Source of the DNA: Pseudalkalibacillus salsuginis
GTDB taxonomy: Bacteria; Bacillota; Bacilli; Bacillales; Fictibacillaceae
Length of the DNA: 64,000 nt
Reading direction: 5' to 3'
Assembly (NCBI RefSeq): GCF_021646685.1
Contig: NZ_JAKJHW010000005.1
Span: forward strand, 124,001-188,000
The notes under the pieces are model-generated. The model saw only the letters and a list, made by a program, of their open reading frames with translations. It was not told the origin of the DNA and made no database searches. Of this stretch, positions 3,498-61,858 are shown one piece after another; positions within the stretch are counted from its first letter, which is position 1, and the number at the start of each line of letters is the position of its first letter. The position numbers and the translations under genes are program-made.

Positions 3498-3680
3498 GAA
3501 GATATTTTTGTTTCGATAAAGGAATTTCTAGCTCCAACGCCCAACCACTTTTCTTATTTCAGTCCTTCTGCGGCGGCGACACATTGATTTAGTTCGAAGA
3601 GTTTACCCACTCAGAACCGAACTTTGTTTGGTTCGAGCCTCCTCGTCGGACTTCCAGCAGGGCGTTTACGCTTTTCTTAG
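3498..3680. repeat. Dispersed repeat family A, copy 1
   Basis: The copy has the family landmarks in order: TCTAGCTCCAACGCCCAACC, CTGCGGCGGCGACA, CAGAACCGAACTTTG, GCCTCCTCGTCGGACTTCCA and GGGCGTTTACGCTTTTCTTA. Other copies lie at 17683, 19281, 23072, 37819, 42241, 58868 and 61617. Short open frames inside it are translations of the repeat, not genes. Confidence 0.85.
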
Positions 3681-17682: not shown

Positions 17683-17880
17683 AAGAAAGAATAAAAATTT
17701 TGTTTTCGATGAAGGAATGTCTAGCTCCAACGCCCAACCACTTGGTTCACTCCAGTTCTCCTGGGGCGGCGGTACATTGATTTAGGTCGAAGCGTTTGCC
17801 CATGTAGAACCGAACTTTGTTTGGTTCTAGCCTCCTCGTCGGGCTTCCAGTGACCTTCGAGGTTGGTCAGGACGTATCCT
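17683..17880. repeat. Dispersed repeat family A, copy 2
   Basis: Begins AAGAAAGAATAAAAATTTTG and runs through TAGCTCCAACGCCCAACCAC, GAACCGAACTTTGTTTGG and CCTCCTCGTCGGGCTTCC to GGACGTATCC. It ends 18 bases from the stop of the MscS gene. Confidence 0.82.
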
Positions 17881-19280: not shown

Positions 19281-19640
19281 CGAGCTAGGCAAGCCCCCAC
19301 ATCGATTTGCAATTTAAGGATCTTCGACTAAATACCACCACGTCCTGTGGTGAACGTCGAATCCAGCACATCCTGTTCAAGTGGGGAGACTTAGGAATTA
19401 GGCTGATTCAGAGAAGTGACGTCTAGTTCAGCGACCAGTCACTTGGGCCACTTCAAACTTCCTGCGGCGGATAGCACATTGAGTTACATCCCATGTGTGA
19501 GCCCACGCAGAACCAAGTCTTTGTTTCGTTCGAGCCTCCTCGTCAGTTTTCCAATGACCTACGTGACTAGGCGGGGAGTTTCCACTTTTCTTTCGCCCGC
19601 AGAAAGGGAGTGAATTTCGCGAGAATCAGCAATTATGTAA
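19281..19640. repeat. Composite repeat: family D head, structured insert, family A body, D tail
   Basis: GCGAGCTAGGCAAGCCCCCACA (D head) is followed by nested hairpins (TTCGAC...GTCGAA around CCACCACGTCCTGTGGTG; CCCCCAC...GTGGGG). A family A body follows (CCTGCGGCGGATAGCACA, GCAGAACCAAGTCTTTG, GCCTCCTCGTCAGTTTTCC), then the D tail GCCCGCAGAAAGGGAGTGAA. No gene lies in 19080-19725; the remaining bases show nothing recognisable. Confidence 0.7.
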
Positions 19641-23071: not shown

Positions 23072-23264
23072 GATAAGAAAGGATGAAGAAATGGCTAGCT
23101 CCAACGCCCAGCCACTTGGTTCACTTCAGTTCTCCTGCGGCGGTCGACACACTGATTCAGTTCGAAGTGTTTGCCCACGCAGAACCGAACTTTGTTTGGT
23201 TCGAGCCTCCTCGTCGGACTTCCAGTGACCTTTGTGGCTGATCAGGGCGTTTGCGCTTTTCTTA
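23072..23264. repeat. Dispersed repeat family A, copy 3
   Basis: Runs from GATAAGAAAGGATG, through GGCTAGCTCCAACGCCCAGC, GCCCACGCAGAACCGAACTT and GCCTCCTCGTCGGACTTCC, to GGGCGTTTGCGCTTTTCTTA. Its last bases abut the stop of the minus-strand flavoprotein gene. Confidence 0.85.
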
Positions 23265-37818: not shown

Positions 37819-38073
37819 AAGCGAAATTCGACACTCCTGCGGGAGAAGCGAGCCAGGCGAGACCCCGCAGTGAGGGTGCAGAGAACCAACCACTTGGGGC
37901 CTCCCGTGGCGGTCGACACAGTGGGTTACATCCTGAGTGTGAGTCTACGCAGAACCAAGTCTTTGTTTGGTTCGAGCCTCCTCGTCAGTCTTCCAGTGAC
38001 CTTCGTGACTAGGTGGGTCGCTTCCGCTTTTCTTTTGCCCGCGGAAAGGGAGTGAATTTTACGAATGTCAACA
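37819..38073. repeat. Composite repeat: family A body inside a family D frame
   Basis: The D head (CGACACTCCTGCGGGAGAAG, GCGAGCCAGGCGAGACCCCG) precedes a family A body (CCAACCACTTGGGGCCTCCC, GCAGAACCAAGTCTTTG, GCCTCCTCGTCAGTCTTCC, CGCTTTTCTTTTG) and is closed by the D tail (GCCCGCGGAAAGGGAGTGAA). Open frames inside are artefacts. Confidence 0.8.
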
Positions 38074-39652: not shown

Positions 39653-39678
39653 TAACCGGCTCGTATGGATGTGTGTGT

Positions 39679-40194
39679 ATGAAAAAAAATACGAAGGTCT
39701 TGGCCAGCCTGATTATTTTGATCGGGCTTATTTTAATAGTGTTCATCCCCTTTGGAAAAGTATTAGCGATCACATTCGAAAATAGCGGAAATATCATTGC
39801 ATATGTGAATGTGGATAAGGAAACCGAGTTTCATATTCACTATATCCATTCCGTTCATAGGACACCTGTAAAGGAAACTTATGAAATTAGCGATAATGAC
39901 GAAATCGTCCAAACGGCGTTAGCCTATAAAAACTTCGCCATCGGCATGCCGTCCAATGCAACCGGTGATGAAAAATTCATTGAAAAGGACGGAACCTATT
40001 ACATTACGAATATGAACCGGGTCTTTCCATACATCGACATTCGAGTTGGACAAGTAATCGCAAATCATACATTGATCATTGATCAGAAAGAATTCCCTTT
40101 GGATGAAGCAGTGGCACCAGGAAGCTGGGCCCGGTTGGATGTACAACCTATCAATCTATGGCAGCGGCTGAAAGGAGATGAGATTTTTGGATGA
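39679..40194 (+). CDS. DUF1850 protein of the TAXI-TRAP system
   Basis: The protein has one N-terminal membrane segment (VLASLIILIGLILIVFIPFG) and an extracellular domain with HIHYIHSVHRTPVKETYEI, the DUF1850 hallmark. It occurs next to TAXI-TRAP permeases and probably assists substrate handling; the biochemical role is unknown. The 3' end overlaps the permease gene by 17 bases. Confidence 0.85.
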   Translation: MKKNTKVLASLIILIGLILIVFIPFGKVLAITFENSGNIIAYVNVDKETEFHIHYIHSVHRTPVKETYEISDNDEIVQTALAYKNFAIGMPSNATGDEKFIEKDGTYYITNMNRVFPYIDIRVGQVIANHTLIIDQKEFPLDEAVAPGSWARLDVQPINLWQRLKGDEIFG

Positions 40195-42240: not shown

Positions 42241-42516
42241 AAAAATTGCGACACTCCTGCAGGAAAGCGAGCCAGGCGAGACCCCAAGCCAGGGAGAGGC
42301 TTTCGGAAGCCAGAAAAAATGCAAAGCAAGTGATGTTTAGCTCCACCGCCCAACCACTCGGATCACCTCAGTCCTCCTGCGGCGGTCGACATATTGATTT
42401 AGATCGAAGTGTTTGCCCATGCAGAACCGAACTTTTCAAGCCTCCTCGTTGGACTTCCATTGGCCTTCGTAGCTTTTAGAGCTTTTCGCAAGCCTATGGA
42501 AAGGGTTGAATTTCAC
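42241..42516. repeat. Composite repeat: family D head, extra hairpin, family A body
   Basis: GCGACACTCCTGCAGGAAAG and GCGAGCCAGGCGAGACCCC are followed by GGCTTTCGGAAGCC, then TTTAGCTCCACCGCCCAACC, CCTGCGGCGGTCGACATA, GCAGAACCGAACTT and a shortened tail GCCTATGGAAAGGGTTGAA. Confidence 0.78.
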
Positions 42517-42528
42517 ATTTTATATGTT

Positions 42529-42558
42529 TTGACACAGCAAAACCTTTAAAGATATAAT
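42529..42558 (+). promoter_or_regulatory. mhqR promoter
   Basis: Perfect hexamers TTGACA (42529-42534) and TATAAT (42553-42558) are separated by 18 bp. The MhqR palindrome begins inside the -10. Confidence 0.85.
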
Positions 42559-42599: not shown

Positions 42600-43031
42600 A
42601 TGAAGGACTCATCATTAGAATTATTCGTAGTGCTTTCCCGTGCCTATCAATCCATTATGGAGGTGGCGAAAAAAGATACCCAGAGGTTTGGCCTGAACTT
42701 GACAGAATTTGGGGTACTTGAACTTCTTTACCATAAAGGGCCACATCCTTTACAAAAAATAGGCGGGAAGATTTTATTGGCAAGTGGAAGTATTACGTAT
42801 GTTGTCGATAGATTAGAGGAAAAAGGTTTTTTGGAAAGAAAGGCGTGTGAAAGGGATCGTCGCATCACTTACGCTTTTTTAACAGAAAAAGGGAAAACGT
42901 TGATGGAGGACATTTTCCCATCACATGCAGAAGTGTTGCAGCAGGCTTTAAATGGTATTACCGAATCGGAAAAGACTGAAGCGATACAGATGCTTAAGAA
43001 GCTCGGGAAGTACGCTGCGGCGAGGAAGTAA
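42600..43031 (+). CDS. mhqR: MarR-family repressor MhqR
   Basis: The 143-residue winged-helix protein has the MarR core: NLTEFGVLELLYHKGPHPLQ, KILLASGSITYVVDRLEEKG and the wing RDRRITYAFLTEKG. MhqR represses quinone- and azo-detoxification genes and is relieved by quinones and catechols. Assignment rests on MarR similarity plus the characteristic MhqR palindromes before this gene and before the quinone reductase gene downstream. AAAGGAG precedes the ATG. Confidence 0.88.
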   Translation: MKDSSLELFVVLSRAYQSIMEVAKKDTQRFGLNLTEFGVLELLYHKGPHPLQKIGGKILLASGSITYVVDRLEEKGFLERKACERDRRITYAFLTEKGKTLMEDIFPSHAEVLQQALNGITESEKTEAIQMLKKLGKYAAARK

Positions 43032-43189: not shown

Positions 43190-43819
43190 ATGGCAACAAA
43201 CATATTGATTCCTTATTACAGTGCATATGGACATATTTATCAAATGGCACAGGCGGTTGCAGAAGGAGCAGGACGCGTTGAAGATACGGAAGTGAAACTT
43301 GTTCGTGTAAAGGAATTTGAAGAAGTGAAAGCGGCGATGTCTTCCCAGGAGTATTATGTAAAAGCGCAAGAAATGCAGTCTGATATTCAAGAAGCAACAC
43401 ATGATGATTTACGTTGGGCTGATGGAATCATCTGGGGGATTCCAACCCGTTATGGTTCAATGCCAGCCCAAATGAAACAATATCTCGATTCTGCAGGCTC
43501 ATTATGGCTGAACGGGGAGCTTGAAGGTAAAGCGACGGCTGTATTTACAAGCACAGGGTCTGTCCACGGGGGGCAAGAAGCCACAGCCCTTACGTCCTTC
43601 GTGCCATTCATGCACTTTGGTTTGATCTATGTTGGTCTTCCATACGGTGAGAATCCTGAACAGTTGACTGCAGAGTCAAATGGGGGATCACCATATTCGG
43701 CGTCTACGATTGCTGGGCCACAAGGCGGAGAACAGCCGAAGGAAGTTGATCTTGTTATGGCTGGAAGACTCGGAGAACGTGTATCAAAAGTCTCCAAAGC
43801 GTTGAAACCGCTGCGATAG
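43190..43819 (+). CDS. wrbA: NAD(P)H:quinone oxidoreductase, WrbA-like flavoprotein
   Basis: The 209-residue flavodoxin-fold enzyme has the FMN loop PYYSAYGHIYQMAQAVAEG, the WrbA insert GIIWGIPTRYGSMPAQMKQY and GSVHGGQEATALT. It reduces quinones by two electrons and avoids redox cycling. The MhqR palindrome upstream predicts induction by quinones together with mhqR. A GAGGAGTG site precedes the ATG. Confidence 0.93.
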   Translation: MATNILIPYYSAYGHIYQMAQAVAEGAGRVEDTEVKLVRVKEFEEVKAAMSSQEYYVKAQEMQSDIQEATHDDLRWADGIIWGIPTRYGSMPAQMKQYLDSAGSLWLNGELEGKATAVFTSTGSVHGGQEATALTSFVPFMHFGLIYVGLPYGENPEQLTAESNGGSPYSASTIAGPQGGEQPKEVDLVMAGRLGERVSKVSKALKPLR

Positions 43820-43855: not shown

Positions 43856-43903
43856 TGCTCAGCGCTTTTACTCTGTTGACCAACATGTAAGGAGGATCAT
43901 TTT

Positions 43904-44545
43904 GTGACATTAAAAATTAAAATCTACTCAGATTACGTGTGACCATTCTGTTATTTAGCGGAGGTTCCGCTAGGAGAGGCAATAGAAGGAAAAGATGTTG
44001 AAGTTGAATGGATGCCGTTCGAACTGAGGCCTGAACCAGTTCCTACCCTTGATCCAAACTCTGATTATATACAGCATGCATGGCACGAGTCTGTCAAGCC
44101 GATTTCCCAAAAACTAGGGGTCGAAATGAACCTGCCCCCGGTCCAGCCGAGAACATACCTGGCTTTTGAGGGATTTCAATATGCGAAAGAACATGGTAAA
44201 GCTAACGATTATAACCACCGAATTTCTCAAGCCTTTTTTGAAGAGGGAAGAGATATCGGTCAACTTGATGTTCTTGTCGATCTTGCTGAAGAAATTGGCT
44301 TGAATGGGACGGAATATCGTGCAGCGCTTGAATCGAGAAAGTATAAGGAGCGTCATCAAGCAGCGTTACGGAACTCAACAGAACAAGGTATCAAAGCGGT
44401 TCCGACCTACATGATCGGAGAGAGGAAACTACAAGGTCTATACCCGGCTGACCGTCTTTCGGAAATCATTGATAAAGAACTGAATAAACAACCCGGCAAC
44501 GGCAAGACCGATGACCTTGAAGGATCATCAGGCGAAAACTACTGA
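43904..44545 (+). CDS. FrnE-like DsbA-family oxidoreductase with an in-frame UGA at the CxxC motif
   Basis: GTG at 43904, 8 bases after AAGGAGG, opens MTLKIKIYSDYV, then TGA (43940-43942), then PFCYLAEVPLGEA, all in the frame of the remaining protein. FrnE proteins read SDYVCPFC here, so the stop replaces the first active-site cysteine. The rest is intact: VEWMPFELRPEP, LAFEGFQYAKEHGKANDYNH, and the cis-Pro region AVPTYMIG. If UGA is read as selenocysteine, the product is a 213-residue thiol/selenol oxidoreductase; if not, it is a pseudogene. A hairpin at 43956-43972 fits a bacterial SECIS. Confidence 0.7.
43956..43972 (+). promoter_or_regulatory. SECIS-like hairpin 13 bases after the UGA
   Basis: TAGCGG and CCGCTA form a 6-bp stem closed by AGGTT. 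The loop begins 19 bases after the UGA and has G at positions 2 and 3. Bacterial SECIS elements such as E. coli fdhF have an AGGUCU loop beginning 17 bases after UGA. Confidence 0.45.
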
Positions 44546-44568
44546 AACCCTCAGTAGTTTTTTCCGTT
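44538..44568 (+). terminator. Terminator of the FrnE-like gene
   Basis: AACTACTGA pairs with TCAGTAGTT around AACCC, followed by TTTTTCC. The intact terminator argues that the unit is still transcribed as a gene. Confidence 0.8.
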
Positions 44569-44576
44569 TGTACCGA

Positions 44577-44760
44577 TGCAATAACACTCAGTTGATGCAA
44601 ATGACGACTGCTCTGATCCAATAAATGTAATAAGTGTGCAATCAAATTTTGGTATCGCGCAATTATTTTTATTTCGATGCGATTATTTCATGGAATCGCG
44701 CAATTATTTTTGAAATCGTGAAATTCTCTCGTGAAATCGCGCAATTATCGTAGATCTGAG
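44577..44760. repeat. 20-21 bp period TGCAAT array, 9 units
   Basis: TGCAAT-like words (TGCAAT, TGCAAA, TCCAAT, TGCGAT, CGCAAT, TGAAAT) start at 44577, 44596, 44617, 44637, 44658, 44678, 44699, 44719 and 44740. The spacing is 19, then 21/20 alternating. Later units approach the consensus CGCAATTATTTTTGAAAT. Confidence 0.87.
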
Positions 44761-44837
44761 AAACGGAACCTAAACAGAGAAGGGATCTAGGCTCTTCCTG
44801 GAGAATACCCTTGTAAAAGAATAGAGGAGATGATCCG

Positions 44838-45796
44838 ATGATCCTAAAAGAACGCAAAATGCCCATCAAAATCAAGAAATTACAGGCATTACTAAGACGG
44901 TTGCCAGCTAACCATCAAAAAAGAATCCAGATTGAATAGGAACTTGCTAAATCGATGGCGGGATACCGTGGTGAAAAATCTATTGATTACTACCTGGGTC
45001 TCTTATCTGAAAAACAATTTGGTATTTTTCATGATTTAAGGCTGAAAAACGGAAGAGGTTGCTTTCAAATAGACACGCTGGTTATATCACCATCTTTTTT
45101 TCTCATCATAGAAGTGAAGAACATTGCAGGCACTCTCTATTTCAATAATAAAAAGGACCAGCTGATAAGGACAATTGAGGACAAGGTAGAAGGTCTCCCT
45201 GATCCATTTTTACAGGTATTCAATCAAAAGATTCAGCTTGAGAAATGGCTGCTTCAAAATAAATTTCCCCGGATGCCCCTTGAACACCTCGTTGTAATCA
45301 GTAATCCCTCCACAATCATCAAAACGACACAATACATCCCAGAACTCATCCATAATGGGAACATCCCGCAAAAAGTTCAACAGCTTACCCAGAGATATAA
45401 ATTTGAACACCTTCCGACAAAAGAACTTAAGAAACGGTCCTCTCGATTATTAAAAAAACACACGCCCGCTGATCCGGATATACTTAAACTCCTTCCATCA
45501 ATCAAAGTGAACTGCTTAGAGGAGTATTTTGTTATCAATGTTCAACTGTGGGAATGAAAAGGCTATCTGCAAAATGGGAATGCCCTTCTTGTCATTTTTC
45601 TTCGAAAGATGCTCATCTGGAAACTCTGCAAGATTATGCCCTCCTCATCGATCGTTTCATAACGAATCAAAAGTTGAGAAACTTCTTACACATTTCCTCC
45701 AGATCGACCTCTACAAGACTATTAAAATCCATGCAAATGAAGCATTCAGGCTTTACAAAAGGCCGAGTTTATGAGCTGCCTTTGGAGATTCAATAG
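44838..45796 (+). pseudogene. NERD-domain protein broken by an amber stop and a frameshift
   Basis: ATG at 44838 (GAGGAG, 7 bases) opens MILKERKMPIKIKKLQALLR, then TAG at 44937-44939, then in frame ELAKSMAGYRGEKSIDYYLG. The NERD core follows (FHDLRLKNGRGCFQIDTLVI, FFLIIEVKNIAGTL). Near 45545 the frame shifts into a C-terminal zinc-ribbon piece (WECPSCHFSSKDAHLETLQD). Two lesions make this a clear pseudogene. NERD proteins are nuclease-related and often act on DNA. Confidence 0.82.
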
Positions 45797-58762: not shown

Positions 58763-59035
58763 GCACACTCCTGTGGGAGAAGCGGGCCAGGCTATACCAG
58801 CCGTGAGAAACGTGATATCCAGATGAAGAACTGACTTGAAGACTATCTCAAGTCAGTTTTTTTTATTTAAGGATAAGAAAGCATTCATTTAGGAAAGGAT
58901 GAAAATTTTGGTTGCGGTGGAGAAATGTCTAGCTCCACTGCCCAACCACTTGGATCACTTCAGACCTCCTGCAGAGCAGTACAATTGAATGATGACCAAT
59001 GCAATCATTTTTAAAGCCGCGTAATCCGAAAAAAA
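58763..59035. repeat. Repeat cluster: D head, terminator, truncated family A, short 20-bp array
   Basis: CACTCCTGTGGGAGAAGCGG (58767) is a D head. A terminator (58826-58866) follows, then a family A left half (58868-58975) from GATAAGAAAG through GTCTAGCTCCACTGCCCAACC to CAGACCTCCTGCAG. It stops and a three-unit array follows: TACAAT at 58980, TGCAAT at 59000, CGTAAT at 59020, exactly 20 bp apart. Confidence 0.7.
58826..58866 (+). terminator. Terminator of the symporter gene
   Basis: AACTGACTTGA and TCAAGTCAGTT flank AGACTATC, followed by TTTTTT. Confidence 0.85.
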
Positions 59036-61266: not shown

Positions 61267-61299
61267 AGGTTAATAATACAATATATTGATTTTATTGAA

Positions 61300-61482
61300 C
61301 GATAGGTGTCTTTTAAGAAGACTTAATAGGGAATTTGGTGAGAAGCCAGGACTGTCCCCGCAACTGTAATTGTGGACGAACGGAATGATCCACTGTATAA
61401 GAGAGTCTAGCAATAGGTGCTTATATGGGAAGGGTTCCTAGTAGGGAGAAGCAAAAGTCAGTAGACCTGCCTGAGTTTGGTG
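61300..61482 (+). ncRNA. Adenosylcobalamin (B12) riboswitch
   Basis: Conserved cobalamin-riboswitch blocks are in order: ATAGGTG, TAATAGGGAA, TGGTGAGAAGCCAGGACTGT, CCCCGCAACTGTAA (the B12 box) and GTCAGTAGACCTGCCTGA. It precedes the class I ribonucleotide reductase gene and ends in a terminator region, so B12 is expected to switch expression off at transcription. A class II (B12-dependent) reductase elsewhere would explain this logic. Confidence 0.93.
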
Positions 61483-61576
61483 TTTCAATTCTTCGGGGAT
61501 TGAGGGTTGAAGCGTGGACGTTCTTTTCAATTCGGTCCGGGTCTTTTATATAGGTCTGGTCCGATTTCAAACCGTC

Positions 61577-61616: not shown

Positions 61617-61858
61617 GATAAGAAAGTATAAAAATTTTGGTTGCGGTGAAGAACTGTCTAGCTCCACCGCCCAACCACTTAGATCACTTCAGACCTCCTG
61701 CGGCGGCGACAGCCTCCTCGTCGGACTTCCAGTGACCTTCGTGGCTGACCAGGGCGTTTGCGCTTTTCTTGATGTCTAGCTCCACCGCCCAACCACTTGG
61801 ATCACTTCAGACCTCCTGCGGCGGCGAATGCCACGACGTTGGTCTTCCCGGTGACCTG
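61617..61858. repeat. Two tandem truncated family A repeats inside the nrd leader
   Basis: The first copy (61617-61772) runs from GATAAGAAAGTATAAAAATT through GTCTAGCTCCACCGCCCAACC to GGGCGTTTGCGCTTTTCTT, lacking the central ACCGAACTTTG part. The second (61773-61858) restarts at TGTCTAGCTCCACCGCCCAA and ends GTGACCTGTATAGG. They lie between the terminator and the coding region. Confidence 0.8.

Follow-up and report, generated by a model that had tools for sequence, protein, structure and literature searches.

Does the TGA inside a DsbA/FrnE-type gene of Pseudalkalibacillus salsuginis encode selenocysteine (Sec), or does it mark a broken gene? The gene lies on the plus strand at positions 43904 to 44545 of the 64,000-nucleotide stretch of DNA analyzed here (the window) and would encode a UxxC selenoprotein of 213 residues with Sec at position 13. 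The TGA (43940 to 43942) occupies the first Cys position of a CPFC redox motif. Translation of 43904 to 44545 gives VTLKIKIYSDYV-TGA-PFCYLAE..., with this one internal stop only; in our open reading frame (ORF) reading of the window, 200 codons stay open after it until the terminal TGA at 44543 to 44545. With C placed at the stop, the protein matches the Pfam domain DSBA (PF01323) at 100.6 bits against a curated cut-off of 25.6 (E = 1.2e-28), and the PDB matches of the family profile are FrnE structures (best E, 1.1e-24). Both matches support the first-pass annotation, which had placed a UGA at the first cysteine of a FrnE-like CxxC with a frame of about 200 codons beyond it. Membership in the DSBA family is also seen in an alignment of 20 rows, where position 13 (C or U), Pro14, Cys16, and Val166-Pro167 are invariant. 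No signal peptide is apparent by eye, which makes a cytosolic location probable. The ribosome binding site is intact, as had been claimed: AAGGAGG and its spacer (43889 to 43903, plus strand, by sequence reading) precede the GTG at 43904. The parallel claim of an intact terminator stood in part: a perfect 11-bp inverted repeat with a 5-nt loop and a short T run (44535 to 44561, plus strand) overlaps the stop codon and is a probable intrinsic terminator, but it is not among the sites listed by a terminator pattern scan. We propose, with a probability of roughly 0.7, that this is a genuine selenoprotein gene and that the genes for SelA, SelB, SelD, and tRNA-Sec most probably sit in a chromosomal block that the assembly lacks but the organism has. 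The selenoprotein may still be made in this strain.

A SECIS-like hairpin, TAGCGG-AGGTT-CCGCTA, follows the TGA on the plus strand at 43956 to 43972, with stem arms at 43956 to 43961 and 43967 to 43972 and the loop at 43962 to 43966; these coordinates confirm the perfect 6-bp stem and the AGGTT loop starting 19 bases past the UGA that had been noticed from the sequence. The bSECIS model, as given in the accessible part of its source (PMC13188914), has a stem of 4 to 16 bp, a loop of 3 to 9 nt with G in the first two positions, a spacing of 16 to 37 nt from the UGA, and an MFE of −7.5 kcal/mol or lower. The window hairpin satisfies these rules (stem, 6 bp; loop, 5 nt; spacing, 19 nt; −10.1 kcal/mol). 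Under a simplified version of the same rules, 54 of the 2,852 TGAs in the window (about 2%; both strands, the TGA at 43940 included) have a SECIS-like hairpin at −7.5 kcal/mol or lower, and 17 of the 2,852 have one as stable as that at 43940. The single-sequence fold is not exceptional either (z = −1.79; 11 of 200 shuffles fold equally well). Given the number of qualifying TGAs and this unremarkable fold, the hairpin alone would prove little; its conservation is what lifts it above chance.

Conservation also decides the case of an ordinary nonsense mutation, an alternative that the first-pass annotation had itself raised. Under that explanation, a Cys codon became a stop in a decaying copy and the hairpin is fortuitous. 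The roughly 2% of window TGAs with such a hairpin are consistent with it, as is the decay nearby: a NERD-domain gene (44838 to 45557), which had been described as decayed and some 300 bases away, indeed carries an in-frame TAG (44937 to 44939) and begins 292 bases downstream. However, the same UGA and hairpin core recur in six congeneric genomes as well as in other families. This cross-species conservation refutes a simple Cys-to-stop mutation, whose probability we regard as almost negligible.

A protein search of 80 genomes, including the window's own (G000), found relatives of the UGA-containing protein (UGA-DsbA) in 75. Within the genus, the gene is present in seven of eight genomes, always with a single in-frame TGA, whose codon position does not differ between them; beyond it, UGA genes occur in G035, G050, G052, and a further genus (five genomes). 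Thirty-four loci of the subfamily were read, and 33 were compared after a decayed one (L256) was set aside. The codon at the site is TGA in 15 and TGT or TGC in 18. The core GCGG-N5-CCGC is present in 15/15 UGA genes versus 2/18 Cys genes (L025 and L035), and the core with its outer A-T pair (AGCGG/CCGCT) is present in 15/15 versus 1/18. By energy, 12 of the 15 UGA genes reach −7.5 kcal/mol and three only −7.2, compared with two of the 18 Cys genes at −7.5. Loops in the 15 UGA genes are AGGCT, AGGTT, AGGTA, AGTTT, and AGTCT. The hairpin codons GCG, GAG, and CCG (in Ala-Glu-x-Pro) are fixed in these genes, whereas the Cys genes encode the same residues with mixed codons, which indicates that the constraint on the hairpin acts at the RNA level. 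We found no compensatory covariation in the stem; the core is invariant in UGA genes, which makes covariation uninformative as support, and changes in the outer pair are one-sided. In a tree from which L256 was left out, TGA and Cys forms are intermixed, with at least four changes between U and C, three of them forced by well-supported branches.

A second set comprised the best 80 of 580 genome-contig loci, partly picked by a pattern holding the Cys codon; TGA is found in 16 of these 80 and TGT or TGC in 64, a share that is not to be read as a frequency. Among these best 80, the core is present in 16/16 TGA loci versus 4/64 Cys loci. The two sets overlap (by at least three loci, L186, L192, and L217), and their counts are not summed. 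The alternation of UGA with TGT/TGC that the first-pass annotation had proposed to look for in homologues is thus seen in both sets (15 versus 18 and 16 versus 64). The TGA loci of the second set have the loops AGGCT, AGGTT, or AGTTT, and the pair next to the core is A-T in seven, G-T in eight, and unpaired in one. Every UGA-gene loop in both sets has the form AG(G/T)NN, in agreement with the model as set out in the accessible part of PMC13188914.

The hosts of the second-set TGA loci are mostly labelled as Bacillus-type bacteria (Aneurinibacillus terranovensis, Bacillus dakarensis, B. pinisoli, B. timonensis, Salinibacillus xinjiangensis, Mesobacillus zeae, and three other Bacillus); one genome is labelled Pseudomonas sp. 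ISL-84. There are also metagenome bins, labelled as Bacillota (one), Planctomycetota or subgroups (four), and Acidobacteria (one). The loci L156, L168, L172, L174, and L169 (match from 2501) are from the Planctomycetota (or subgroups) and Acidobacteria bins and have the same UGA gene and hairpin; horizontal transfer or a binning error is possible for these. The locus set aside, L256 (1507 to 2100), belongs to G052, where it is an additional copy of the UGA gene that has decayed; it has a further TGA at a position occupied by Trp in its relatives, and other changes.

The distribution of the UGA gene follows that of the Sec machinery. Full-length SelA (E = 1e-136 or better) was found in 54 of the 80 genomes and tRNA-Sec in 53; weak SelA matches (G054, G055, G059, G070, and G073) were scored as no SelA and G002, which has no such gene, as no UGA. 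A UGA-DsbA gene of the short or a longer subfamily occurs in 32/54 SelA-positive versus 1/26 SelA-negative genomes (Fisher P = 7e-7, which is optimistic, near relatives not being independent). The UGA codon was checked in each positive genome, and genomes without it were scored from the stop listing of the protein search. The sole SelA-negative genome with the gene is the window's own; without it, the count is 0/25. With UGA and hairpin conserved within and beyond the genus, UGA alternating with Cys, and the UGA copies tracking SelA, the claim of a selenoprotein gene held up.

These data also bear on whether the UGA might be read by a tRNA other than tRNA-Sec, e.g., one for Cys or Trp. The codons of both amino acids are near-cognate to UGA, and the assembly lacks the machinery although the frame is unbroken, as such decoding would have it. 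Against it stand the tracking of SelA by UGA over the 80 genomes, the fit of the hairpin to the SECIS rules, and the anticodons, UCA being found in none of 28 tRNAs in the 1.5 Mb sampled of 4.29 Mb. We consider non-Sec decoding very improbable. By analogy with established bacterial Sec biology, SelB carrying Sec-tRNA-Sec would instead bind the hairpin at 43956 to 43972, and the UGA at 43940 to 43942 would be decoded as Sec in place of the first redox cysteine. The resulting UPFC active site of a thioredoxin-fold protein would then carry out thiol-disulfide or related redox exchange.

All seven congeners have SelA and tRNA-Sec. In the four whose sel locus was read (G004, G005, G006, and G007), selA, selB, selD, and tRNA-Sec form one block with acnA; selB, selD, acnA, and mnmH were model-tested in G005 only (selB with an NCBIfam model), and selB in the other three was identified by eye. 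In the same four, lexA lies on the contig of the sel block, at most 20 to 25 kb away from tRNA-Sec. The selD gene itself has an in-frame UGA (motif GG-UGA-GCK) in all of four congeners read. In G004 and G005, where the interval was read, tkt lies between the sel block and lexA. In the G005 block (L072, 14145 to 17582) there are also genes for a PhnCDE-like ABC transporter and for a glycosyltransferase of family 4, which the GPMC-system and SenB models score below their cut-offs; the same genes are seen by eye in G004, G006, and G007, and a role in selenium uptake or a selenium side pathway is possible. A second selA-selB-tRNA-Sec set is present on another G005 contig (L078; G005:C89:1-20000) and may be foreign, G005 being rated 5% contaminated.

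The window's own assembly (4.29 Mb in 19 contigs, 99.63% complete) yielded no selA, selB, or tRNA-Sec. A protein search of it returned no match for SelA and none for the SelB C-terminal domain (PF09106), and tRNA-Sec gave nine weak matches only, all below cut-off; these were rejected as ordinary tRNA-Ser, Gly, Arg, Met, Phe, His, and Tyr. SelA, SelB, and tRNA-Sec were thus not found together with the UGA gene in its own genome, which speaks for the assembly and not surely for the organism. The first-pass annotation had proposed a search for the sel genes. It came out divided, with selA, selB, and tRNA-Sec missing here but SelA and tRNA-Sec found in all seven congeners. The same annotation had held that a genome without selB and tRNA-Sec would count against a selenoprotein. 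That is literally the state of the assembly; yet the sel block is missing together with acnA and lexA, so the absence of the machinery does not refute the nature of the gene. No AcnA scored over cut-off in G000, where a distant aconitase-family protein is present, and LexA gave no match, versus matches in 19 of the 19 other genomes in the same search. Compared with G000, the 56 kb that surround the sel genes in G005 gave short, paralogue, or repeat matches only; one match of G005 DNA was traced to a dispersed repeat and does not reflect orthology.

The edges of the missing stretch were located by collinearity between sampled stretches of G000 (1.5 Mb) and the single-contig genome G004. No edges showed when only the contig ends of G000 were set against 237 kb of G004 and 67 kb of G005; sampling inside contigs and more of G004 revealed them. 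Collinearity of contig C16 with G004 extends to 1709054, and C3 matches from G004 position 1894329 onward, 2.3 kb from the C3 end. Within the sampled parts of G000, matches to the 185 kb of G004 between these points all stay below 300 bases, except one of 549 bases at 68%; by eye, this stretch of G004 also holds tkt, thyA, dfrA, gltB, gltD, galU, and proC. C16 does not stop where collinearity ends but continues for another 31 kb with other genes, and the break is therefore not at a contig end. Because acnA, lexA, the 56 kb, and the 185-kb stretch are missing alongside the sel genes, a missing contig is more likely than a true loss of the machinery. The high completeness and the continuation of C16 count against a missing contig.

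Mildly relaxed evolution of the gene gives some probability to a true loss. It would mean that the gene is a selenoprotein gene by descent, that a large deletion recently removed the machinery, and that translation now stops after 12 residues of a decaying copy. We regard this as unlikely, although it is a serious alternative. The assembly, for all its completeness, has no selA, selB, or tRNA-Sec, and the C16 and C3 ends resemble insertion-sequence fragments by eye. Such a deletion would have taken AcnA and LexA together with tkt, thyA, dfrA, gltB, and gltD (seen by eye in G004; the absence of the last four from G000 refers to sampled stretches, not to a search), a joint loss that is improbable, and both frame and hairpin are perfect, with no further stops or frameshifts. 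Substitution counts bear on decay as well. The dN/dS of the gene is 0.53 or 0.59 between G000 and its sister G005, compared with 0.09 between G005 and G006. With G006 to polarise the changes, the G000 branch accounts for 5 synonymous changes and 12 nonsynonymous ones (4 and 11 in a second computation) and the G005 branch 4 and 3; at the protein level, the branch lengths are 0.071 for G000 and 0.02 for G005. For 28 neighbouring ORFs, the counts on the G000 branch are 206 synonymous and 157 nonsynonymous changes, so that 12/17 in the gene compares with 157/363 (one-sided Fisher P = 0.025, chosen post hoc). Some neighbours nevertheless have a similar or higher nonsynonymous share (8/9 at 39673 to 40194). 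These values give a hint of relaxed constraint on the G000 copy. There is also a slim prospect that the machinery is truly lost but that translation of the intact UGA gene goes on in some other way, e.g., by low-level reading of UGA as Cys, in which case a selenoprotein gene would have outlived its own code in nature. Under the favored reading of a gap in the assembly, the genome is a warning about such gaps; under true loss, it captures the rare moment at which a selenoprotein gene has only just lost its machinery.

DsbA-like UxxC selenoproteins with the PF01323 domain are a published predicted family, as far as the accessible parts of the sources go (PMC9312934, PMC2398784, PMC5029168, PMC1794560, and PMC13188914), and by its sequence features the window gene is a further member of this already known family. 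The available text of PMC2398784 lists the family as DsbA 1 and 2, and a table in PMC5029168 gives counts of 41 and 45 for DsbA-like proteins. In the part seen of PMC1794560, Bacillales with three selenoproteins were counted in 2006. Likened by description in the accessible parts of PMC9312934 and PMC13188914, DsbA-like protein form 1 has the same Pfam domain and UxxC as the window protein; it differs in that the Sec machinery is absent from the assembly here. The term FrnE did not appear in the accessible portions of the selenoprotein literature in which it was looked for, and a literature search on FrnE and selenoproteins listed no title on bacterial FrnE. Searches returned nothing on selenocysteine in Fictibacillus or on UGA/cysteine readthrough in Bacillales.

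By sequence profile, the best structural relatives of the window protein are FrnE structures, PDB 5cnw and others (E = 1.1e-24). FrnE 5cnw, which we take to be from Deinococcus radiodurans and to have a CxxC, contains Cys and at 260 residues is longer than the window protein. YwbO of Bacillus subtilis is presumably a Cys homologue of the same length as the window protein. A relative at 50% identity occurs in B. tequilensis (L183), and orthology is putative. The B. subtilis gene is listed as ywbN-ywbO and Fur-regulated in the accessible part of PMC3498285; the window gene differs in having MarR and WrbA genes as its neighbours. In a long FrnE-type subfamily of about 240 residues, with UGA members in Fictibacillus and other genera, 24 of the 26 loci read carry UGA at the same position of CPFC (24 loci had been fetched as TGA-flagged and two as others). 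This subfamily is distinct, being about 25 to 32% identical to the window protein and having a hairpin of its own, of the AGCGTC-TGGAG-GACGCT type, in 23 of the 24 UGA loci, with 28 nt from UGA to loop. The present gene adds a well-supported Sec-encoded DsbA/FrnE branch, mostly from Bacillaceae-like bacteria, that automatic annotation would render as a pseudogene or start 24 codons past the UGA. Its alternating Sec and Cys forms, with the hairpin kept or lost accordingly, are natural pairs for testing the benefit of Sec to an oxidoreductase.

Upstream of the UGA-DsbA gene on the plus strand are a gene for a WrbA-like flavodoxin/NADPH-dependent FMN reductase (43190 to 43819), a probable operon partner, and a gene for a MarR-family regulator (42600 to 43031), the probable operon regulator. 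Both are present upstream in six of seven own-genus loci (1.5 kb per locus). A perfect sigma-70/sigma-A type promoter, TTGACA-18-TATAAT (42529 to 42558, plus strand; 12/12 matches), precedes the MarR gene; the promoter scan returned 6 promoter-like sites, versus 3.7 expected. Gene order and promoter suggest that UGA-DsbA is probably coexpressed with the reductase under the MarR regulator, and the MarR and WrbA neighbours point to a possible role in quinone or electrophile stress. On the downstream side, the sister genome G005 is without the window stretch 44588 to 45110, and the front of the NERD gene is thus gone there.

The window holds several other elements. A dispersed repeat of about 170 to 210 bases occurs at 23091 to 23263, 17717 to 17874, 42331 to 42474, and 3524 to 3657, with further copies at 61655 to 61824, 19417 to 19592, 37891 to 38034, and 58925 to 58972. 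Forty-seven matches to it are listed in the window's own genome, mostly 80 to 90% alike, and it is also found in G005 and at several contig ends. Its RNA fold has an energy of −68.6 kcal/mol, a raw, uncontrolled value. One copy adjoins a Bacillaceae-1 RNA (RF01690; 19312 to 19379, plus strand), and a cobalamin riboswitch (RF00174; 98.9 bits) is located at 61286 to 61488 on the plus strand.
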